In this document: positions 3,763 to 53,663 of the stretch, one piece after another
Layout of the letters: each line of letters begins with the position of its first letter
Numbering within the stretch: position 1 is the stretch's first letter
NCBI RefSeq assembly: GCF_000170755.1
Contig: NZ_ABCK01000015.1
Coordinates: forward strand, 1 to 64,000
Length of the DNA: 64,000 nt
DNA from: Lentisphaera araneosa HTCC2155
GTDB taxonomy: Bacteria; Verrucomicrobiota; Lentisphaeria; Lentisphaerales; Lentisphaeraceae
Reading direction: 5' to 3'
Program-made: the position numbers and the translations under genes
Notes under the pieces: generated by a model
Told to the model about the DNA's origin: nothing
The model's database searches: none
The model's input: the letters and a program-made list of their open reading frames with translations, nothing else

Positions 3763-3864
3763 ATAAAAAGATTTAATTTAAAACTATCTTTCCATATGTT
3801 ACGATTAAATATAACACTTTAAGTTTTTTTTCGACTCGTAAAACTCAGCACTCGCCAAATTAAA

Positions 3865-3890
3865 GCCGCAATGATTGCGGAGCTCCCAGC
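3865..3890 (+). repeat. REP-like hairpin, diverged copy
   Basis: CCGCAAT-G-ATTGCGG followed by AGCTCCCAG. It has the stem plus TCCCAG tail seen in the other REP-like copies at 3948, 10877 and 38888. It is an empty (uninterrupted) site. Confidence 0.6.
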
Positions 3891-3947
3891 TAAATCTTTT
3901 ATTTATTTGTGTTTATCTGTGGATGAATATTTACCCACTCTTATTAA

Positions 3948-3980
3948 TAGCGCATTGGAATGCGGGGCTCCCAGGCGCTA
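3948..3980 (+). repeat. REP-like hairpin, empty IS110 target
   Basis: CGCATTGGAATGCG hairpin followed by GGGCTCCCAGG, enclosed by an outer TAGCGC/GCGCTA inverted repeat. The GCTCC^CAGG tail is the sequence at which both IS110 copies in this window are inserted; here it is uninterrupted. Confidence 0.75.
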
Positions 3981-4000
3981 ACAAAACACCATTTACCTGA

Positions 4001-4528
4001 TACCTAAGCACGAAGTGCGCTACCTAAGCACGAAGTGCGCTACCTAAGCACGAAGTGCGCTACCTAAGCACGAAGTGCGCTACCTAAGCACGAAGTGCGC
4101 TACCTAAGCACGAAGTGCGCTACCTAAGCACGAAGTGCGCTACCTAAGCACGAAGTGCGCTACCTAAGCACGAAGTGCGCTACCTAAGCACGAAGTGCGC
4201 TACCTAAGCACGAAGTGCGCTACCTAAGCACGAAGTGCGCTACCTAAGCACGAAGTGCGCTACCTAAGCACGAAGTGCGCTACCTAAGCACGAAGTGCGC
4301 TACCTAAGCACGAAGTGCGCTACCTAAGCACGAAGTGCGCTACCTAAGCACGAAGTGCGCTACCTAAGCACGAAGTGCGCTACCTAAGCACGAAGTGCGC
4401 TACCTAAGCACGAAGTGCGCTACCTAAGCACGAAGTGCGCTACCTAAGCACGAAGTGCGCTACCTAAGCACGAAGTGCGCTACCTAAGCACGAAGTGCGC
4501 TACCTAAGCACGAAGTGCGCTACCTAAG
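4001..4528 (-). repeat. 26-copy perfect tandem array of a 20-bp palindromic unit
   Basis: The unit tacctaagcacgaagtgcgc occurs 26 times without a mismatch (4001-4520), plus an 8-base partial copy. Each unit contains GCAC-GAA-GTGC. On the minus strand it reads GCGCACTTCGTGC followed by TTAGGTA. It is the same 'word plus linker' found once each in mixed clusters near 36243, 50372 and 53541. No spacers separate the copies. It lies immediately past the 3' end of a sulfatase gene. Confidence 0.97.
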
Positions 4529-4560
4529 GCAACTTGTTGCCGCTACCTTGAGCGCAGCGA
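4521..4560 (-). repeat. Mixed palindromic modules flanking the array
   Basis: On the minus strand: a GATCGCTGCGCTC word, then GCGGCAACAAGTTGCC followed by TTAGGTA, leading directly into the 20-bp array. Both words recur elsewhere in the window. Confidence 0.7.
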
Positions 4561-5910
4561 TCAACCCTTTTTCTTTTTTACTTTGGGTTTAGGCGCTTTA
4601 AAAAGACTTTTTTGCTGGGCCATTTCATCGATCACTTGTTTTAAATTAGTAAAGATCGCCTGATCTTTTTCACTGGCAGAGTCAAATTTAACTTTTTCTT
4701 CCACAAAGTGTGCTGGAAATTTTTGGTAAATAATTTTTTTATTCTTGTCTAACAAAACTCCATGAGTCACGTTGCGAGCCCATTCACCGCCTTTGAAGTA
4801 CCAAATATAAATCAGTTTTTTCTCACGTGTTTCTTTACCAGAAAGAGTTGACCACAAGCTAACTCCATCCCCTGGATAATTATCGGGAAGCGGTGCACCA
4901 GTGATCTCACAAAGAGTGGGCATGATATCAGAGAACTCCACCAATTCAGTTTTTTGGACTTTGGGGGCGATTTTGCCGGGCCAGTTAACTATAAAAGGAA
5001 CTCTTGTTCCCTCGTCAAGAACCTTACCTTTTTTACCAATAACTTCGCGACCACTCCATTGAGTCCTGATCGGTGCTTCAGTACCATTATCACCAGTGAA
5101 AATCACAAGCGTATTTTCACGTAGGCCGAGGCTTTCCAACTTTGTAATAATTTTACCGACGATTTTATCTGCATACTGCACCATGTCGCGAAAATGAATT
5201 TTCTTCTGATCATTATCACCTGGTCCCTTATAGGTCTTTGAACCCGGTGATTTAGGATCCCAAGTTAATGAATCTGGCGTCGCATCAAAGGGACAATGGG
5301 TGAGAATCATCGGGTAATAAATAAAGAAGGGCTTATCCTTATTGGTCTCCATAAAATCACAAAGAAAGTCTGCGCAAACATCTGGTCCATACTCACCATT
5401 ACTATAATCCACTGCTTTGCCATTGATCTCTAATTGAGGGTTGGAAAAACGGCTATCAAAAGTCGTTCCCTCTTTCGCTTTTGGACGAAAATGCTGCCAT
5501 AAACAGGCTTGATCAAAACCAAAATGTTGGGGCGCATCTTTTTCTCTTCCCAGTTGCCACTTCCCCGCAATTGCCGTTGTGTAACCCGTTTTTTTGAGCT
5601 GGTGAGCAAAAGTCGTCTGAGATCGATCTAACACACCAAACTTCGTGAAATTACGTTTGTTATAAAGGCCGGTCATGATCTTTATGCGAGACGGAGTGCA
5701 GATGGGATTGGCAAAGCACTGTTCAAAGCGCATGCCTGTCTCTGCCAGCTTATCCAAGACAGGTGTTCTATAATCTTCACTTCCATTAGAACTAATGCAT
5801 TCATAGCCCATATCATCGGCCATAATTAAAACGATATTGGGTTTATTTTCCGCCGCCAAAAGCTTGAAACAAGCCATCGATAAAAAGAGTAAGATTGAAA
5901 ATTTGTTCAT
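4561..5910 (-). CDS. Secreted sulfatase (formylglycine-dependent)
   Basis: A 449-residue sulfatase that hydrolyses sulfate esters, probably from sulfated polysaccharides, outside the cytoplasm. Residues 1-20 are a signal peptide. The metal-binding start PNIVLIMADDMG is at 24-35. The activation motif C71-T-P-S-R75 means Cys is to be converted to formylglycine. A second signature, GYTTAIAGKWQLG, is at about 109-121, and FTGDNGTE provides further metal ligands. The C-terminus is lysine-rich. The maturase needed for formylglycine is not in the window. The gene stands alone: a palindrome lies 52-70 bp upstream and the 26-copy array directly downstream. Confidence 0.95.
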   Translation of the reverse strand: MNKFSILLFLSMACFKLLAAENKPNIVLIMADDMGYECISSNGSEDYRTPVLDKLAETGMRFEQCFANPICTPSRIKIMTGLYNKRNFTKFGVLDRSQTTFAHQLKKTGYTTAIAGKWQLGREKDAPQHFGFDQACLWQHFRPKAKEGTTFDSRFSNPQLEINGKAVDYSNGEYGPDVCADFLCDFMETNKDKPFFIYYPMILTHCPFDATPDSLTWDPKSPGSKTYKGPGDNDQKKIHFRDMVQYADKIVGKIITKLESLGLRENTLVIFTGDNGTEAPIRTQWSGREVIGKKGKVLDEGTRVPFIVNWPGKIAPKVQKTELVEFSDIMPTLCEITGAPLPDNYPGDGVSLWSTLSGKETREKKLIYIWYFKGGEWARNVTHGVLLDKNKKIIYQKFPAHFVEEKVKFDSASEKDQAIFTNLKQVIDEMAQQKSLFKAPKPKVKKKKG

Positions 5911-11925: not shown

Positions 11926-12219
11926 TCACTTCTCCTTTGTTATTGAATCGAGCTCTAAAGCTCGTTTATTTAAAATCATATCACCACAGCTGCTTTTAAA
12001 AGCTTTTAGGTGGGGAGCTTGGCGGTGCGCTTCTAAATCTTCTGCGCTTGCCCAGCTCTCTAGAACTGTGAATAATGAGCTATCATCCTTGGATTGATAA
12101 ACGGCGTATAAAACGCAGCCCTGCTCCACTTTTGATTCACTTTCCAGGCCAGCCATGACTTTAGCAAAAAACTCAATGCTTTCTTCAGCTACCTGAAATT
12201 CTATCCACTTAGTAATCAT
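11926..12219 (-). CDS. ABM-domain protein (quinol monooxygenase/LsrG-like)
   Basis: A 97-residue ferredoxin-like alpha/beta barrel (antibiotic biosynthesis monooxygenase domain): FFAKVMAGLESESKVEQGC, VLYAVYQSKDDSSLFTVLESWAS and HRQAPHLKAFKS, a typical ABM ending. In the E. coli AI-2 pathway the ABM protein LsrG isomerises phospho-DPD just before LsrF acts. An LsrF-like gene is in this operon, so an equivalent role is plausible but inferred. The start overlaps a 24-bp sequence that is duplicated at the 3' end of dhaK. The ancestral arrangement probably had the dhaK stop 1 bp before this ATG. Confidence 0.75.
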   Translation of the reverse strand: MITKWIEFQVAEESIEFFAKVMAGLESESKVEQGCVLYAVYQSKDDSSLFTVLESWASAEDLEAHRQAPHLKAFKSSCGDMILNKRALELDSITKEK

Positions 12220-12373
12220 TTTAAGCCTTTACATAATTCATGTTGTCGCACATTTTTATTGCTGTACAAACGTGTGCTTTTTATCTGCCCGTCCGGCAGG
12301 ACCTTGCTAGCCTTTGATCCGGCGACTGGTGCTTCGCACTTACTATACTTAATCATTTTAAGCCTTTACATAA
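12213..12373 (-). repeat. Hairpin cluster inserted at dhaK-ABM junction, flanked by 24-bp direct repeats
   Basis: The same 24 bases occur at 12213-12236 and 12350-12373; they hold the dhaK stop, the SD and the ABM start codon. Between them lie 113 bp with palindromes such as CTGCCCGTCCGGCAG and GTGCTTCGCAC. If one repeat and the insert are removed, dhaK and the ABM gene become directly adjacent, which is the likely ancestral state. Confidence 0.85.
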
Positions 12374-13353
12374 CCGGGGCTATCGGCCGGCATGTCGTAG
12401 TATTCTTTGAGCTCGTCATCTAAACGCATGAGAGTCACTGAAACACCCGCCATTTCCTGTGCAGTACAGAATTCGCCGAGCTCGGTTTCGTGAATGCTCA
12501 TACCCTTCGATTCAAGATATTTGTGCATGTGACGCATAACAATGAACATTTCCATTCTTGTTGTCGCTCCATAACCATTGACTAAAGCAATGATATCATC
12601 CCCTGACTGAAAAGGAAGATCGGCAATAATTGCATCACAAAGACGTTCGGCAGTGGCATCGGCAGTCATTAGATCCACTTGCTCAATACCGGCTTCACCA
12701 TGAATACCCATACCGAATTCCATGCGACCTTCAGGAAGTTCAAAAGTCTTGAGTCCCGTTTCTGGGAGGGTGCATTCGGAAGTCGAAACACCGAGTGAAC
12801 GACAGTTAAAAACAGCGCGCTCAATAAGTGCCTTGAGATCATCAAAACCCATACCGGCTTCTGCTGCTGCACCTGCAACGTGAATCACCAAATGATCCGC
12901 AGTTGTACCGCGACGTTCTTCGGCTTGATCCACTGGGAAGGCTGAGATCTCGTCATTAATGAGTACAGTTTCGACTTTATGGCCTTCGAGACGGGCAAAA
13001 TCTTGTCCCATATCGAAGTTCATCACATCACCAGCATAGTTATTATAAATCATAATAACGCCCTCACCTGAATCGGCGGCTTTGATTGCATCAAGAACTT
13101 TGTCGGGCGTTGGTGCGGTAAAGACTTGACCGTGGACCGAAGCGTCGGCCATGCCCTTGCCAATGAACTCGAGGAAGAGTGGCTCATGCCCTGCTCCGCC
13201 GCCAATGACAATGCCGACTTTTCCTTTGATGGGGGCATCGACTCGTGCACAAACGTGGGGCGCAATACGCTTCACTTTTGATTTATTCGTCAAGCAAAAG
13301 CCATCGATGAGTTCAACGGCTAAATTATCGGGATTATTAATAAGTTTACGCAT
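12358..13353 (-). CDS. dhaK: Dihydroxyacetone kinase subunit DhaK-like
   Basis: A 331-residue protein matching the substrate-binding K subunit: MRKLINNPDNL, IVIGGGAGHEPLF, YNNYAGDVMNF and GMGIHGEAG, whose His covalently binds the ketone of dihydroxyacetone. The start at 13353 is chosen because it has AAGGAGG 7 bp upstream and follows the DhaL stop by 1 bp; a longer in-frame start would overlap dhaL. With DhaL it forms a kinase for dihydroxyacetone or a related ketose such as erythrulose. No DhaM or PTS gene is nearby, so ATP is the likely donor. In this operon it may supply the phosphorylated substrate of the LsrF-like or aldolase step. Confidence 0.9.
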   Translation of the reverse strand: MRKLINNPDNLAVELIDGFCLTNKSKVKRIAPHVCARVDAPIKGKVGIVIGGGAGHEPLFLEFIGKGMADASVHGQVFTAPTPDKVLDAIKAADSGEGVIMIYNNYAGDVMNFDMGQDFARLEGHKVETVLINDEISAFPVDQAEERRGTTADHLVIHVAGAAAEAGMGFDDLKALIERAVFNCRSLGVSTSECTLPETGLKTFELPEGRMEFGMGIHGEAGIEQVDLMTADATAERLCDAIIADLPFQSGDDIIALVNGYGATTRMEMFIVMRHMHKYLESKGMSIHETELGEFCTAQEMAGVSVTLMRLDDELKEYYDMPADSPGYVKA

Positions 13354-13354
13354 C

Positions 13355-13996
13355 TTAAGCCTCCTTAGTTGCTTGTTCGGCAAAGCACTTGATGATCAGT
13401 GTCACGGAAGTGGCTCCAGCATCTTGGTGGCCAAGACCTCTTTCGCCTGCATAGCGTGAACGGCCTTTATTGGCCACGAGTGTTTTGGTTACTTCGATGC
13501 CCTCAAGTGCCGCTTGGTGCATTTTATTGAGTGCGACACCGAGTGATTCGCCCGCTTGAGAACTGGCTTTTAAGGCACGAATCCCTGGCGCGAGTGCATC
13601 GATAAGTGTTTTATCACCTTCGGCTGATTTACCTATCTTCATCACACGCGCTAAACCACTTTCAAACGACTCCACTAAGTGAGATAGGGTAACTTCTTCT
13701 GAGCCCTGAGTCGTCATTCCCATGCCGAGAAACATGCTGGAAAAGATAGGACCGGACGCTCCACCCATAGTGGAAACCATGCCCATTGCGTAAGCCGCAA
13801 AGAGTTTGTCGACTTGCTGGGGTTTTTCGGTATCAATTTTTATCTGTGCCGCTTTGACGCCGCGACGAATAGTTGTGCCGTGATCACCATCGCCAACGAC
13901 GGAATCCAGTTCGCAGAGGAACATGGCGTTATCGCAAATGACTTCCGTCACATTGCCGAGAATGGCGTAGATATCTTCTAATTTAAATGTTTCCAT
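13355..13996 (-). CDS. dhaL: Dihydroxyacetone kinase subunit DhaL-like
   Basis: A 213-residue nucleotide-binding L subunit. CELDSVVGDGDHGTTI gives the Asp/His cluster that binds Mg-nucleotide, then TMGGASGPIFSSMFLGMG, GDKTLIDALAPG and RSRYAGERGLGHQDAGATS. All these are diagnostic of DhaL. Length is normal. It lies directly before dhaK and is translationally coupled to it. The separate K and L genes resemble the bacterial PTS-type gene order, but no PTS component is present in the window. Confidence 0.92.
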   Translation of the reverse strand: METFKLEDIYAILGNVTEVICDNAMFLCELDSVVGDGDHGTTIRRGVKAAQIKIDTEKPQQVDKLFAAYAMGMVSTMGGASGPIFSSMFLGMGMTTQGSEEVTLSHLVESFESGLARVMKIGKSAEGDKTLIDALAPGIRALKASSQAGESLGVALNKMHQAALEGIEVTKTLVANKGRSRYAGERGLGHQDAGATSVTLIIKCFAEQATKEA

Positions 13997-14041
13997 AATC
14001 AGTCCTTAAAAAATTCGAGTTTATTAGATTAAACAGCATAG

Positions 14042-14175
14042 AGGGTATGATGCTTCGCATACGAAGGGGACGCTGTCCCCCTCGAGCTCCCTTGCAAGGG
14101 TCTTCGCCAGACGGGCAACAAATTATTTGCCCGTACGGCAGTACCTTGACCAGGCGCTTAGGGGCTTTGCCTCTT
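14042..14175. repeat. Hairpin cluster between LsrF-like gene and dhaL
   Basis: Four or more palindromes in 130 bp, including GGGGACGCTGTCCCC, CCCTTGCAAGGG and CGGGCAACAAATTATTTGCCCG (the last 22 bases in total, 14115-14136, with arms CGGGCAA/TTGCCCG). There is no gene. Similar clusters lie in the neighbouring gaps at 12237-12349 and 15102-15175. Confidence 0.7.
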
Positions 14176-14193
14176 TATCTACTTAATCCTAAA

Positions 14194-35435: not shown

Positions 35436-35545
35436 CTTTCAGTGCAGAGTCTTGCAGCGAATGAAATGAACGACCTTTCAGCGTAGTGGTCTTGCAGTGA
35501 GCTTTTGAATGATCTTTGAGCGCAGCAATCTTTTTATCCGCAATT
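35436..35545 (+). repeat. Second-type module cluster (GATCT words)
   Basis: Successive words beginning AGCG or AGTG and ending in [G/A]TCTT: GCGAATGAAATGAACGACC, GCGTAGTGGTCTT, GTGAGCTTTTGAATGATCT and GCGCAGCAATCTT, then a TTTTATCCGCAATTGCC tail as at 38873. There is no gene. Confidence 0.65.
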
Positions 35546-35557
35546 GCCGAACGTTAA

Positions 35558-36076
35558 CTATTGCTTTTCGTATACTTTCGTATCGACTGCAAAGCTATTT
35601 AATTTAAAGTTGACCTTGTCTGTAAAGACCGAGAACTCTAGCTTAATCTCATGATCAATAAAAACATTTTTGAACACATCTTTATTTTCACCTATCGTTT
35701 TAATTGACTTGATCGTATAATTATCCTTTGTCATGAGGATCGTTTTTATGGGTTTGGGGACATCAGGGTAAACGCCACAGGAGTGTTGATTATTCACCCA
35801 TTTTTTCATTCCTTCATCTGTCACCATTTTATCAAAAAAATAAATTTTAGAATCGAGATTAATTTTATCCTTTTTCTTATCTATGTGTATTCTTAATATA
35901 GATTTCTTCTCTTTAAACAAATAAAAAAGCAAGGTACTCCTAGGTCCAATATCACCATAACGCACTTCGATTTTCTTCGCTTGTTTCACATCCAACTCAA
36001 TTATAACCTGCTGTTCTGCAAAACAACTTATAGAAAAGCACAATAAAAAGAGTTTTAATAGTAGGAGAACATTCAT
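35558..36076 (-). CDS. Secreted protein (hypothetical)
   Basis: A 172-residue product from the ATG of MNVLLLLKLF, which begins a clear signal peptide (LLLLKLFLLCFSISCFA). The longer frame upstream has no SD and runs through repeat sequence. The mature part is beta-rich and Lys-rich: VIIELDVKQAKKIEVRYGDIG, SILRIHIDKKKDKINL and FVIDHEIKLEFSVF-like strands. No family is recognised. Flanked on both sides by module clusters, it is likely a single-gene unit. Confidence 0.65.
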   Translation of the reverse strand: MNVLLLLKLFLLCFSISCFAEQQVIIELDVKQAKKIEVRYGDIGPRSTLLFYLFKEKKSILRIHIDKKKDKINLDSKIYFFDKMVTDEGMKKWVNNQHSCGVYPDVPKPIKTILMTKDNYTIKSIKTIGENKDVFKNVFIDHEIKLEFSVFTDKVNFKLNSFAVDTKVYEKQ

Positions 36077-36205
36077 TATATATAAAATTTCCTTTAGAAT
36101 TAAAAAATTATTCCTCGAGCATAAAGACGTACGAAAATGAAGTTTCTTACAAGAAACTAAAAAATTAATTAAACAATTAAGAATCCAAGATAAAACACCT
36201 CTCAT

Positions 36206-36312
36206 ATCTGCCTTAGAGGGCGGCAACAAGTTACCTTGGGTTGCGCACTTCGTGCTTAGGTTGCACTCGCTACGCTCGTTTAGGGGGCGCCTGCGGCTTA
36301 GGTTACAGGCTT
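36206..36312 (+). repeat. Mixed palindromic module cluster
   Basis: GCGGCAACAAGTTACC-TTGGGTT, GCGCACTTCGTGC-TTAGGTT (the word amplified at 4001), GCACTCGCTACGCTCG-TTTAGGGG, GCGCCTGCGGC-TTAGGTT, ACAGGC-TTAAGG. Word plus linker order is clear; there is no gene. Confidence 0.82.
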
Positions 36313-36317
36313 AAGGT

Positions 36318-36545
36318 CATTAACCACGGATTAAACAGATGGGGCAGATTTATTTTTGGGAACGATTCCATAGTTAGACAAATCCACAGTTGGGGATAAA
36401 GAACAAAAGACAGCGAACCACGGAAAGCACAGAAAAACATGGAAGGAGAGCAATTTTTAATGGAAGGTCAAGGGAAGTTTAACCACAAATCCAACAGATA
36501 AAACAGATCTTTTTTTGTGCTTTTTTGTGGTTCAAATTACTTCAG
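36318..36545 (+). repeat. AACCACAGATT-type dispersed repeats
   Basis: Repeated phrases of the form TTAACCACGGATTAAACAGA, AACCACGGAAAGCACAG and TTAACCACAAATCCAACAG, alternating with AT-rich sequence. Similar phrases lie at 10693-10840 and 37088-37205. No gene is supported. Confidence 0.55.
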
Positions 36546-36559
36546 ATTTCAACTGATAA

Positions 36560-36625
36560 CTGCAGGCTCGTCGAGCCGATCTGTAGCTAATGGAATGAGC
36601 GATCTTTCAGTACAGCGGTCTAACT
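36560..36625 (+). repeat. Second-type module cluster (GATCT words)
   Basis: GCTCGTCGAGC hairpin, CGATCTGTAGC, TAATGGAATGAGCGATCTTT, CAGTACAGCGGTCT. This is the same vocabulary as 35436-35545 and 38815-38880. Confidence 0.6.
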
Positions 36626-36628
36626 CTC

Positions 36629-36829
36629 TTATTCCTCGACTAAATTCGAGAGGTCATCTAACCAAGACTTATCGTGTTCAACGGAATCTTGAACTGAACC
36701 ATCCAAATCAATGCGAACTTCCTGATGACAATCTTTACAGGTGGCGTGATAGAATTTCGCTTGATTCTTGCTATCGGTAATGGGTGTGAGATGTTCGAGG
36801 TTTTTGCTTTGGCAATGGGGGCAATTCAT
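36629..36829 (-). CDS. Small zinc-ribbon protein
   Basis: A 66-residue protein with CPHC at residues 3-6 and CKDC at 31-34, the spacing of a zinc ribbon, and an acidic C-terminus (DKSWLDDLSNLVEE). SD AAAGGAAAGAAC lies before the ATG. No known partner is adjacent. Similar small CPxC/CxxC proteins are common in this phylum; the function is unknown. It is flanked by repeat clusters on both sides. Confidence 0.7.
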   Translation of the reverse strand: MNCPHCQSKNLEHLTPITDSKNQAKFYHATCKDCHQEVRIDLDGSVQDSVEHDKSWLDDLSNLVEE

Positions 36830-36923
36830 GTTCTTTCCTTTTTCGTTTCTCCAAACTGCTTCACCCTTTCAGTTTCATCAAGTATTTCCTGTACTCTTTT
36901 CATTATTAGATCATCAATTTACT

Positions 36924-37052
36924 AAGGAGGTTGCGCCTGCGGCTTGGGTGGCGCTCGTCCCGAGCTTAGGGAGCGGCAACAAGTTGCCTTGGGTTGCACT
37001 CGCTGCGCTCGTTTAGGTTGCGCTGACGCTTAGGTGGCAGGGAGCGCTGTGC
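36924..37052 (+). repeat. Mixed palindromic module cluster
   Basis: GCGCCTGCGGC-TTGGGTG, GCGCTCGTCCCGAGC-TTAGGGA, GCGGCAACAAGTTGCC-TTGGGTT, GCACTCGCTGCGCTCG-TTTAGGTT, GCGCTGACGC-TTAGGTG. All five words recur in other clusters, in different orders. Confidence 0.82.
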
Positions 37053-37240
37053 GATAATTTTTAATTGAAATCAAGATCAAGGGAAATTTAACCCCAGATT
37101 GAGCAGATCAAACAGATCTTTTCCGTGCTATTTTGTGATTTTTTGTGGTTCTAATTACTTCAGGTTTTTCCTTTCCATCTGTCCTATATGTTTGATCTGT
37201 GGTTAAATTACTTTAGGTGGTCGGAAGCAGGTGATAGGTT
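37053..37240 (+). repeat. Spacer with AACCCCAGATT-type repeats
   Basis: Contains TTAACCCCAGATTGAGCAGA and GATCTGTGGTTAAATTACTT phrases, partly in opposite orientation. No gene is supported. Confidence 0.45.
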
Positions 37241-37261
37241 CCGCATTGAATGCGGTACTCC
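37241..37261 (+). repeat. REP-like hairpin occupied by IS110
   Basis: CCGCATTGAATGCGG then TACTCC, immediately followed by the IS110 left end CTATAGTAG... (core CC at 37260-37261). The other half of the target, CCCAGG, is at 38796-38801. Confidence 0.78.
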
Positions 37262-37513
37262 TATAGTAGCCCAAGTAATTAAATAGATAAATATAATGAG
37301 GGGGTCTGGGGGAGAAATTTTAGAATTAAAAAAGGAACATATAAATTTAATCATTCTCGGTACGAATTGGTGCTCCTGTCTTTAAAAAGACTTTCTGGGC
37401 ATTTCGACCGGGAATGTTTTTCAGCGGGACGAATACTCAGAAAGCTTCCACCACGAATGCTATAGGAATTTCGCATGCTGTTTTTTAAATCTATATATTC
37501 CCTAGGAGTAAAA
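37262..37513 (+). ncRNA. Candidate bridge-RNA leader of IS110
   Basis: Non-coding, and nearly identical to the leader of the other copy (about five short differences in 252 bp), whereas the proteins differ at roughly a third of N-terminal residues. Stems GTCTTT/AAAGAC (37378-37391) and CTTTCTG/CAGAAAG (37391-37397, 37438-37444) are visible. GGTGCTCC (37369-37376) resembles the target up to its CC core, and CTATAG (37460-37465) repeats the element's own left end. Both are what target and donor guides would look like. The RNA itself is inferred. Confidence 0.6.
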
Positions 37514-38761
37514 ATGTATAATGTGACTCATAAAAAACCATCTGATTACGCGGTAATTGTAGCAATTGACTGGGCTGATGAAAAGCATAATTTCAGAATT
37601 CTTCGAGATAATCATGAAGAAACAAAAGTTATTAGTAATGATTTGTTTGAGATTCAAGATTTCTTTTGGAGCCTTCAAGGTAATTCTATAGCCGTCGTTA
37701 TAGAAAGCTGCCAAAGTGCATTGATGAACCTACTGCTGTCCATGAGTAATTTAGATGTATACACGGTTCATCCCACGACTTCATCTAAATTTTCAAAGAC
37801 TTTCCATGTCAGCGGTGCAAAAAGCGATCGTTCCGATACCAAGGCTTTACTTGAATTATATTTAAAGCATCCGAATAAAGTTAATAAAGCTGACTCTTCC
37901 TTCTCAAAGGGAAGTCTGAAAAAGTTAAATCTTCGCAGAAGAAATTTAGTGGATGATCGAACAAGTTTAACTAATCAATTAACTGCGTTGCTTAAAATTT
38001 ATTATCCACAAGCCCTTAAAGTAGTTGGCAACCATCTGTACGCAGAAATATTTATGGAATTCCTAGATAAGTATCCAAGTCCGCAGTCGATTCTTAATGC
38101 CCATCAAATTGGGATCACGAAATTTTTTAATAAGAGAAGTACCAGTAGTAAAAAAACAAAAGAAAGAGTTAAAGCCTTACGTAGTTCTATTGTTGTTGTA
38201 CACGATGAAGATGAGTTAGACTGCTATGTATTCGAAGCTCGACAATTCTGTGTGCGAATCAAAAGCTTGAATGAAGTTATTAAAGCTTATGAGAAAAAGA
38301 TTTTGAAGATCTATACAGAACATGAGGACTATGAACTATTTCATTCCTTTCCAGGAGCAGGACCAAGTATTGGACCTCGACTCATGGCTTTCTTTGGAGA
38401 TGATAGAGAACGTTTTCAATCAGTAGAAGAAGTCTTAAAGACTAGTGAAGTAGCACCTGTAACAATTCAGAGTGGAAAGATGAATATTGTGAGAAGGAGG
38501 TTTTTGTGTGATAGATTCACTCAGCTTAGCTTTGTGGAATTTGCTAACAATTCAATCCGATCATCTATCTGGGCTCATGAATTTTATTATCACAAAAAAG
38601 CTCTCAATATGCCTCATTTTTGCATCTTAAGAGCTTTAGCATACAAATGGATAAGAATTATGTACCGATGCTGGAAAACGAGGACTAACTACTGTGAAAA
38701 AACCTATTTGCAGGTTTTAGAAAAAAGAAAACCAGCGTGTTATCAAAAAGTTATGAATTAA
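37514..38761 (+). CDS. IS110-family transposase (DEDD recombinase)
   Basis: A 415-residue transposase. The start MYNVTH at 37514 has AGGAG 5 bp upstream; the in-frame codons before it lie in the conserved leader. The N-terminal RuvC-like DEDD domain has VIVAIDWADEKHNF (Asp19), VIESCQSALMN and SGAKSDRSDTKALLEL. A coiled-coil spacer follows. The C-terminal Tnp_20 domain has FPGAGPSIGPRLMAFFGD with the putative catalytic Ser at about 284, then SGKMNIVRRRFLCDRFTQLSF in two stretches. It is complete and presumably active; family members act with a guide RNA from the leader. Confidence 0.95.
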   Translation: MYNVTHKKPSDYAVIVAIDWADEKHNFRILRDNHEETKVISNDLFEIQDFFWSLQGNSIAVVIESCQSALMNLLLSMSNLDVYTVHPTTSSKFSKTFHVSGAKSDRSDTKALLELYLKHPNKVNKADSSFSKGSLKKLNLRRRNLVDDRTSLTNQLTALLKIYYPQALKVVGNHLYAEIFMEFLDKYPSPQSILNAHQIGITKFFNKRSTSSKKTKERVKALRSSIVVVHDEDELDCYVFEARQFCVRIKSLNEVIKAYEKKILKIYTEHEDYELFHSFPGAGPSIGPRLMAFFGDDRERFQSVEEVLKTSEVAPVTIQSGKMNIVRRRFLCDRFTQLSFVEFANNSIRSSIWAHEFYYHKKALNMPHFCILRALAYKWIRIMYRCWKTRTNYCEKTYLQVLEKRKPACYQKVMN

Positions 38762-38814
38762 GACAAAAACCTACTTGCAAGTGCACTCAGAAAAGCCCAG
38801 GTTTTAACTGATGT

Positions 38815-38880
38815 CTGCAGGGCGAAGACCGATCTGCAGCGAATGAAATGAGCGGTCTTGTAGCGGAGCGGTTTTTTATC
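38815..38880 (+). repeat. Second-type module cluster (GATCT words)
   Basis: GGGCGAAGACCGATCTGC, GCGAATGAAATGAGCGGTCT, AGCGGAGCGG then TTTTTTATCCGC. Matches 35436-35545 word for word in parts. Confidence 0.65.
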
Positions 38881-38966
38881 CGCAATTGCCAAGCTGGAGC
38901 TTGGCGGTCCCAAGTGGAGCGGTTTTTTATACGCAATTGCCAAGCTGGAGCTTGGCGGTCCCAAGT
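38865..38966 (+). repeat. 51-bp tandem duplication carrying a REP-like hairpin
   Basis: Two near-identical 51-bp units (38865-38915, 38916-38966; one clear difference, ATCCG versus ATACG). Each holds GCCAAGC-TGGA-GCTTGGC followed by GGTCCCAA, the stem-plus-TCCCA layout of the REP-like family with different stem bases. An incomplete third unit starts at 38967. Confidence 0.8.
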
Positions 38967-39057
38967 GGAGCGTTCTTTCAGCGAAGCTGATCTTTACCAC
39001 TTGAAAAAAGCTACTTTTTGCTTTACTTAAGGCAAATAATTTTCGGAGCAATAAATC

Positions 39058-41808: not shown

Positions 41809-41871
41809 GAGCTTCTCCTAATTAATTGCCTAATATAGGGGCCCAATTCCGCGGAGAGTAATTATTTAATT

Positions 41872-41962
41872 GAGCACCTTCGACTTAGGGAGCGGTAATA
41901 CGTTGCCTTAGGTAGCGCTAACGCTTGTCTTGTGCTCGTTTCGAACTTAGGTTTCAGCAGGG
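41872..41962 (+). repeat. Mixed palindromic module cluster
   Basis: GCACCTTCGAC-TTAGGGA, GCGGTAATACGTTGCC-TTAGGTA, GCGCTAACGC-TTGTCTT, GTGCTCGTTTCGAAC-TTAGGTT. Words are slightly worn versions of those at 36206 and 36924. Confidence 0.75.
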
Positions 41963-50312: not shown

Positions 50313-50474
50313 TGCGCTGACGCTTGGCTTGCGGCAACAACTTGCCTTAGGGAGCGGAGAGGAGCTCCTCGCGTGGCGCACTACGTGCTTAGGAAGCGCT
50401 GACGCTTAGGATGCACTCGCTGTGCTCGTTTAGATTGGGGTAACGCTTGGGTTGCGGCAACGAGTTGCCTTAGA
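50313..50474 (+). repeat. Mixed palindromic module cluster (eight words)
   Basis: GCGCTGACGC-TTGGCTT, GCGGCAACAACTTGCC-TTAGGGA, GCGGAGAGGAGCTCCTCGC, GCACTACGTGC-TTAGGAA, GCGCTGACGC-TTAGGAT, GCACTCGCTGTGCTCG-TTTAGATT, GGGGTAACGC-TTGGGTT, GCGGCAACGAGTTGCC-TTAG. The longest mixed array in the window. Confidence 0.85.
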
Positions 50475-50593
50475 TGAAAGGTGAGAAGTACCTTAAAAAA
50501 GATGGCCGATAATCTACAGAAAAAGATGCAAAAAAAACTTTTATCTCGAGCAAAGATTCAGTATCGTATTTATAGAAAGAGATGAGACGAAAA

Positions 50594-51576: not shown

Positions 51577-53460
51577 GTGCGTGACCGAAAACCCAGTGTT
51601 TATGAGTTTGTTGATGATTTTAAGTTAATATAAAAATTCAAAATATGGTTATACGTGTCGTGCAGTCATAGTATTATCATTTTTTTAAGGCCTAGGCGTC
51701 AGAACAAAGGCTTTTTTTCTATTTATTCACTAAGTCAAGGCAGGAGAAAGTACGCCGTGAATGGCGTTTTTATTATTATGAAGAGCTTTAAGCGCTTTTT
51801 CTTTTTCTACGTAGGACTTTGATTTCTCTGGCCATGATGATAGCACCAAGATGATGGATATTACTGGCACTTATCGCCATAGCGGCATAACGTTCGAAAT
51901 TAGGAGTACCCTTATCAGGGCATCGGTCAAAACCATGACTTTCAAGAGCGTTAATAGCTGATTCAACTGCGGGGTGTTGTTTGCGAGCGACGACAAAGGC
52001 CTCCTTACTTTCACGCTCTTGAGCAGCTTTATTTCGGCGACCTTTTACAGGGAGGTGAGCTCTTACCTCTAATGCTTCAATGCGGGAGTGATTATTTTGA
52101 CCATCCTTATCTACCTTTGAATAAAAACCCTTATCAAAACTCATCGATGTCAGCCCAGGGTACAGCTCCTTACTTTTACGAACCATTTCAACCGCCACGT
52201 CTTTATCCTGCTCGCCCTTCATGATCCTATGGTCGAGAATAAAGCCAAACTGATCTTCAACTACACATACCTTCACGCCAAGTTCCTGACGAATCCCAGC
52301 TTTTCCTTTGCATATCCATTCTGTGTGAGGTTCAAAAATCGAATACACCTTTTCATCGGGTGAAATAGTCTCTCCATTAAGAACTCTACGACTTATTTGC
52401 TTAATGAATAAGTCCGTGTAATCCATGTTTAACTGAAGCTTGGGACACTCTTCATCTAAAGAATTCTGGAGAGTTCTTGCTTTGAGTAAATGAGCTCGAG
52501 CCACACTAAGGTAATCCTTAATTATCTCCTCTATTTCTAAGCGACGTTTTTCCTTTCGCTCTTCTTTCTTCGAGTTAGAGTGACGCATCTTGCTCAGTTT
52601 ATTATAAAGGCTATGGAATTTCTTTTGCTGGCTTTTTACTTCACGCCAGCCAGTGATTTTCAAAGATGAAGCCAATTTGCCTCCGATGCTCAATACTTTG
52701 CGTACAGAATCTTTTAATAGATTCAAATCAGTGGGGAAATGAACATTCGTTTCAAAAACAAAAGAATCGCAACGACTATGTAATTCTCGTTCTTCTGGGA
52801 AAAGTAATTCATGGCTGAAAGCAACTACGAGTTTACTAATTTTATTGGCAATTTCTTTTGTAAAAAGGCTAACGTTATCGTGTATTGTTTGGCGTCCTGT
52901 AACTATGTCGACATCACAAAAAAGATCAACTCCACAGATCTCCCGAATTTTGTGATGATAATCATAGCAACTTTTGAGCTTGTCATAATCCCAATTACAG
53001 CTCAAACGCAAAGTGCCTAAAACAAAAATAACCCAGAGATCCATTCCTTTACGTCCATCATTCCAGGATGTTCCTTTAGGAACTAATTCAGACAAAACAT
53101 CTTGGATTTCTTTGAGTAAAACTTTGTTTCGATAAATTTCTTGTAAACCACGAAGAGTTTTGGTTATTTCATCACGGCAGTATGTGTCGAGTCTCACTTG
53201 TTCAATTGGCGTGACTCCGAGAAGTGGGTTTTCTCCTAATTCTGCTTGTGTACTTGTAAAATTACGCATGCTATATGACACCTTGGATTCTTTTATTTTA
53301 TCTGTATCCTATTGGATAAATAGTAGTTTATGATGAAGTACTATACATTTAAACAAAAGTTTTATAGGGTACTTTAATACTGTTTTCTAGAAAAACTCAC
53401 AACTTATTTTCCTTATAAATTATTATACTTAAAAGACTTAGGTTCATTTCGGTCAGGCAC
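51577..53460 (-). mobile_element. ISNCY-type insertion sequence
   Basis: 1884 bp. The terminal inverted repeats are GTGCGTGACCGAAA and GTGCCTGACCGAAA. The 6-bp target duplication TAAGTA is at 51571-51576 and 53461-53466. The right flank continues directly as a palindromic module (GCGCTGACGC-TTAGG), so the element is inserted at the edge of a module cluster. One intact transposase gene is carried. Confidence 0.9.
51788..53269 (-). CDS. ISNCY-family transposase
   Basis: About 493 residues from the ATG of MRNFTSTQ; a GTG in frame lies 12 bp upstream. NPLLGVTPIEQVRLDTYCRD, MDLWVIFVLGTLRLSCNWDYD and VDIVTGRQTIHDNVSLF are typical of the N-terminal part of this family. The catalytic DDE-like core includes SRCDSFVFETNVHFPTDLNLL, GVKVCVVEDQFGFILDHRIM and LTSMSFDKGFYSKVDKDG, with the ending GFDRCPDKGTPNFERYAAMA. 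It appears full-length and may be active. Confidence 0.85.
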   Translation of the reverse strand: MRNFTSTQAELGENPLLGVTPIEQVRLDTYCRDEITKTLRGLQEIYRNKVLLKEIQDVLSELVPKGTSWNDGRKGMDLWVIFVLGTLRLSCNWDYDKLKSCYDYHHKIREICGVDLFCDVDIVTGRQTIHDNVSLFTKEIANKISKLVVAFSHELLFPEERELHSRCDSFVFETNVHFPTDLNLLKDSVRKVLSIGGKLASSLKITGWREVKSQQKKFHSLYNKLSKMRHSNSKKEERKEKRRLEIEEIIKDYLSVARAHLLKARTLQNSLDEECPKLQLNMDYTDLFIKQISRRVLNGETISPDEKVYSIFEPHTEWICKGKAGIRQELGVKVCVVEDQFGFILDHRIMKGEQDKDVAVEMVRKSKELYPGLTSMSFDKGFYSKVDKDGQNNHSRIEALEVRAHLPVKGRRNKAAQERESKEAFVVARKQHPAVESAINALESHGFDRCPDKGTPNFERYAAMAISASNIHHLGAIIMAREIKVLRRKRKSA

Positions 53461-53461
53461 T

Positions 53462-53583
53462 AAGTAGCGCTGACGCTTAGGTTGCGGCAACAAGTTGCCT
53501 TAGGGGGCGGGGTAAAACTCCTTGGGTGCGCACTACGTGCTTAGGTAGCGCTGACGTTTGAGTTGCACTCGCTGGGCTCGTTT
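53462..53583 (+). repeat. Mixed palindromic module cluster
   Basis: GCGCTGACGC-TTAGGTT, GCGGCAACAAGTTGCC-TTAGGGG, GCGGGGTAAAACTCC-TTGGGT, GCGCACTACGTGC-TTAGGTA, GCGCTGACGT-TTGAGTT, GCACTCGCTGGGCTCG-TTTAGGGG. Confidence 0.84.
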
Positions 53584-53663
53584 AGGGGGACGCTTTAATT
53601 TTTAGAGGCCGTCATTGGCTACTAGGGGGACGCTTTAATTTTTAGAGGCCGTCATTGGCTACT
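53584..53663 (-). repeat. 40-bp tandem duplication at the pseudopilin 3' end
   Basis: Two identical 40-bp units (53584-53623, 53624-53663). The right one includes the last codons and stop of the pseudopilin gene; the left one is an untranslated copy next to the module cluster. Confidence 0.9.

Follow-up and report, generated by a model that had tools for sequence, protein, structure and literature searches.

A 113-bp insert between 24-bp direct repeats at the dhaK–ABM junction of Lentisphaera araneosa HTCC2155

The dhaK–ABM junction and its relatives

The window, the 64,000-nucleotide stretch of DNA analysed here (genome G000), carries on its minus strand genes for a DeoC/LacD aldolase, a dhaL-like (Dak2) protein, DhaK (Dak1 domain; 12358..13383; Pfam PF02733, E 2.7e-106), a 97-residue ABM-domain protein (11926..12219; Pfam PF03992, E 4e-16) and a TIM-barrel isomerase, in that order. 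Between dhaK and ABM, a 24-bp sequence, TAATCATTTTAAGCCTTTACATAA on the forward strand, is found at both 12213-12236 and 12350-12373 with 24/24 identity, enclosing 113 bp, exactly as a preliminary description of this DNA had claimed. Read on the minus strand, the repeat is TTATGTAAAGGCTTAAAATGATTA and contains the dhaK stop codon TAA, one base and the ABM ATG, together with the SD sequence AAAGG, which is the content that had been ascribed to it. The copy that adjoins dhaK and is transcriptionally first (12350..12373, minus strand) comprises the native dhaK tail and stop and a duplicated ABM start. The copy adjoining ABM (12213..12236, minus strand) comprises a duplicated dhaK tail, the SD at 12226-12230 and the native ABM start at 12217-12219; with SD and start both present, ABM retains its own ribosome site, also as described earlier. 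Both genes are whole despite the insert between them.

Tandem arrays and tRNA genes aside, the window has no exact direct repeat of at least 15 bp within 1200 bp other than the 24-bp pair. The window was shuffled 20 times by a first-order procedure; at spacings of up to 700 bp, the longest repeats measured 11-15 bp, and the 24-bp repeat is therefore not attributed to chance. A 46-codon open frame (12216..12356, minus strand) starts at the duplicated ATG, crosses the insert and closes with a TGA stop that overlaps the ABM start (ATGA). A stop-free frame is likewise present in approximately 13% of shuffled inserts, such that this frame is not significant alone; by its position it could retain translational coupling between dhaK and ABM, which is offered as a remark rather than a claim.

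A compact dhaK–ABM junction with one copy of the repeat is observed in five relatives (G001–G005), two of which, G001 and G002, belong to the same genus as G000. In these two congeners dhaK and ABM are neighbours, in three family members a dhaK-like end precedes ABM, and at all five junctions the stop and the ATG are 0-2 bases apart or overlapping. The junction in the closest relative, G002 (97% dhaK identity to G000), is GGCTACGTAAAGGCTTAAAATGATTACAAAG; that in G000 is GGTTATGTAAAGGCTTAAAATGATTA, the insert, TTATGTAAAGGCTTAAAATGATTA and then CTAAG. BLAST of G000 against G002 returns two blocks of similarity, which share 23 bp at the empty site in G002 and lie 114 bp apart in G000. Because five relatives keep the compact single-copy junction, the insertion is considered real, and the alignments identify it as an insertion with a 24-bp target duplication that arose in the G000 lineage. 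The proposal that removing the insert and one repeat copy restores a compact operon junction is thus matched by the orthologous, insert-free junctions of all five relatives. The identity of the two copies (24/24), set against a DNA divergence of 16-19% between G000 and G002 in the dhaK operon, suggests that the insertion is fairly young.

The insert and hairpin-repeat family M

Family M, defined by iterative profile search, consists of gene-free repeats of ~125-165 bp (~160 bp, or ~127 bp without the middle arm) that have inverted ends and are dispersed over intergenic sites across the genus. The family consensus is GATTACCCATAAAGCGGGGCAAAGCCCCTTAGTCGCCTGGTCAAGG...GGGTAA; its outer ends are CACGATTA and TAATCGTG. 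Comparison of the two flanking sequences of each of 43 near-full copies in 2.45 Mb, with the copy ends as anchors, reveals direct repeats of 8-12 bp around 12 of the 43 (for example ATAGATAAT, GTAAAAAACAT, AAACTTATTA and CTAAAATAAAT), as against 1% in mispaired-flank controls, and duplications of at least 13 bp around none of the 43. These sequence features make M a MITE-like element whose target duplication, AT-rich and 8-12 bp long, is ordinary, and the 24-bp duplication at the 113-bp insert, which lies outside this range, is an exception to the family norm. The earlier claim that hairpin clusters generally move with long duplications does not hold for M. RNAalifold analysis of 25 M sequences gives almost no covariation term, and no conserved RNA structure is claimed for the family as a result. 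A second M copy is present in the same operon, between the dhaL-like and DeoC/LacD aldolase genes (14029..14188, minus strand), with a copy at the same site in G001 and none in G002. Its central arm seems inverted with respect to the consensus, and an opposite-strand M match is observed at 14095-14176.

The 113-bp insert (12237..12349, minus strand) matches positions 3-90 of the M model in an nhmmer search (E 4.4e-7), starting from the insert edge and then departing, such that it covers the left half of the family. The insert has the ends AGTATAG... and ...CATGAA. Of the inverted ends of M, only GATTA, itself host sequence, is found on the left and nothing on the right, and the M right end is not recognisable at the right edge of the insert. 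Since that end is missing, the insert is read as a partial element. Many intergenic repeats of the genus match fragments of it, and its nearest pieces lie in G001, where one cluster aligns with it at 91% over 44 nt. On the combined evidence of the nhmmer match, the alignment and the partial G001 match, the insert is hairpin-repeat material of a kind spread across the genus, and appears as a partial, divergent piece related to M.

A close copy or donor of the insert is absent from the assembled G000 genome, a donor search among family genomes yields only partial matches (24/33 in G001), and the exact insert pattern does not occur in GTDB contigs. With the nearest pieces lying in G001, the donor possibly came from outside the assembled G000 genome. 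The fold of the insert is fairly complete and closed by a GTCGC/GCGAC stem. The hairpins attributed to it in the preliminary description are a fair characterization, of modest strength: the folding z-score is -1.5 on the mRNA strand and -0.4 on the other. No Rfam family matches the insert above the gathering threshold, and the 113 bp contain no DDE transposase.

Long repeats at other loci and the origin of the duplication

A screen for unique exact repeats of at least 17 bp, with spacings of no more than 900 bp, covered 2.45 Mb of sequence from three genomes, a sample biased towards loci resembling M or Acido-Lenti-1. Besides the window case, host-derived long repeats around hairpin clusters are observed in this sample at only two loci, both in G001. 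At locus C (L097 4645/5029), a 353-bp cluster is surrounded by a 31-bp repeat whose right copy forms the conserved 3' terminus of a gene, stop codon included. At locus D (L102 8867/9570), the repeat is 20 bp exact, or 28 bp with one mismatch, and surrounds a cluster of ~683 bp that ends in the M terminus GGGTAATCGTG; the repeat covers half of a terminator hairpin, of which the 3' half and T-run are duplicated around the cluster (L102 8830-9640). Flanking gene order at both loci differs in relatives. The repeat lengths differ among the three loci (24, 28 with one mismatch, and 31 bp), a spread that counts in favour of the repair or template-switch reading given below. The search for flanking repeats of 15-30 bp at other clusters, suggested previously as a check, does not support a general rule: none are found at the other hairpin clusters of the window, and elsewhere, among 71 loci with a relationship to M or the locus C cluster, an automatic scan returns a long flanking host repeat at one alone, locus C itself, the 683-bp cluster of locus D having been picked up by a separate scan. 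Two further candidates were rejected, one (L100 17057/17308, 20 bp) since the repeated stretch is a module of a repeat family and the other (C1 72406/72532) as a coding tandem array. A third (G000 C1 196178/196277), with 24 bp around 75 bp, resembles an imperfect tandem unit. The window clusters at 35450-38970, 41830-41940, 50314-50480 and 53460-53662 are composed of short palindromes and TTAGG-like spacers, and window positions 3861-4640 hold a tandem array of 20-bp units with TACCTAAGCACGAAGTGCGC, several hundred bp in length and itself a cluster-type hairpin module.

The left joint of the insert is informative with regard to mechanism. Here the M end CACGATTA and the host sequence AATGATTA, the conserved ABM start codon region, are joined as AATGATTAAGTATAG, and the AGTATAG past the joint continues M-like sequence. 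At 1.8 kb from the insert, the second M copy of the operon starts with GATTAAGTAGATAAAG; the joint between host and insert is ATGATTAAGTATAGTAAG. The outer CAC of M is absent at the joint, and the common GATTA belongs to the host sequence and is conserved in G001, G002, G004 and G005. A joint within the common GATTA, the absence of the outer M bases, the missing right end and the odd length together fit microhomology copying or repair better than a transposase cut, and an insertion by repair or template switching at microhomology is tentatively favoured over clean transposition. The host 3' end ...ATGATTA would anneal through the common GATTA to an M terminus (GATTAAGTA...), ~113 nt would be copied, and the copying would then return to the host template 24 nt upstream; a staggered break filled in with captured DNA would be an equivalent route. 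The event would have been retained because the duplicated stretch, with stop, SD and start, keeps dhaK and ABM intact, whereas shorter duplications at this junction would have harmed one gene. Since an insertion at a 1-bp junction could survive only by copying stop, SD and start, the 24-bp length would partly reflect selection, and we infer that a rare long event would be the survivor. Weighing against copying or repair, the donor template is absent from the assembled genome and from the family matches. In addition, the GATTA overlap could be a coincidence, at about 1 in 1000, and the fairly complete fold with its closing stem, as in a whole element, might count against a partial copy.

The long repeats at loci C and D could be equally compatible with a long-stagger transposase, in which case a mobile hairpin element would have generated the 24 bp as a genuine long target-site duplication. 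This alternative is possible, at a lower probability than copying or repair. The repeats at C (31 bp) and D (28 bp, one mismatch) are likewise host-derived, and duplications of 16-28 bp are known for the IS1202 group of insertion sequences (PMC10132070). Nevertheless, the 113-bp unit has no second copy, the 43 M copies reach at most 12 bp, and the insert lacks 5'-TGT inverted repeats at its ends. Nor did the 2.45 Mb yield a transposase gene flanked by long direct repeats (17-60 bp); within one such pair lies a group II intron reverse transcriptase. That Lentisphaera has a separate long-stagger route, which would place whole hairpin clusters with duplications of 24-31 bp beside the 8-12-bp transposition of M, is more doubtful still. 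Ordinary M transposition is the least likely of the three mechanisms and is judged improbable: an 11-13-bp duplication (TAAAGGCTTAAAA) would have grown to 24 bp because the element ends TGATTA and TTATG match the adjoining host by chance. The 8-12-bp duplications of M and the similarity of the left insert edge to an M end agree with it; however, two coincidental extensions of 5-6 bp are required, other M targets lack M-end-like bases past the duplication, and the right insert edge does not resemble an M end. A two-step history, in which a tandem 24-bp duplication was later split by an insertion between the copies, is compatible with all sequences compared and is very unlikely, as none of the relatives compared has the tandem duplication and the second insertion would be expected to leave an 8-12-bp duplication inside. 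An artefact of the single draft assembly (81 contigs) is the least probable explanation of all, given an insert that is unique in the assembly and family-related, and two intact genes.

Whether it entered by the favoured copying or repair or otherwise, the insert provides a clean before-and-after case in which a hairpin repeat enters an operon that remains unbroken, with the empty site kept in relatives. Family M now has defined ends and a defined target duplication, with which its transposase can be sought. The locus also carries a caution, in that a striking single duplication in a tight gene junction may be selected and need not be a family rule.

Comparison with known systems

Similar to the IS1202 group, the insert has a long target duplication, its 24 bp falling within the range of that group. 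It differs in having no transposase and no 24-26-bp terminal inverted repeats and in being only 113 bp long, and no IS1202-like element is found in the sampled genomes.

The genus repeats resemble REP/REPIN sequences with their RAYT in forming clustered intergenic hairpins. Matches to Y1 transposases (IS200/RAYT-type, PF01797) number 16 in G000, 17 in G001 and 6 in G002 across the whole genomes, and these enzymes are possible movers of REP-like hairpins. Transposition of the IS200/IS605 Y1 type is not known to leave a target duplication. REPINs insert in this manner, whereas the insert described here is accompanied by 24 bp.

The Acido-Lenti-1 RNA (Rfam RF01687; PMC2864571) is found inside some clusters of the genus with the same ATAAAAA-flanked hairpin module (locus L014), in contrast to the 113-bp insert with its lack of an Rfam match. 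At L014 1442-1487 and in many clusters of G000, G001 and G002, this RNA lies within a larger hairpin cluster. Similar clusters are bounded by the inverted ends TGTGTGAAAAA/TTTTTCACACA, and these ends suggest that the RNA belongs to a mobile element.

MITE-like bacterial palindromic repeats are gene-free miniature elements with terminal inverted repeats. A parent transposon of M was not identified in the sampled genomes. M shares with these repeats its lack of genes, its size of 125-165 bp, its inverted ends, its intergenic location and its AT-rich 8-12-bp duplications; the 113-bp insert differs from them in that it is partial and divergent and its duplication measures 24 bp.
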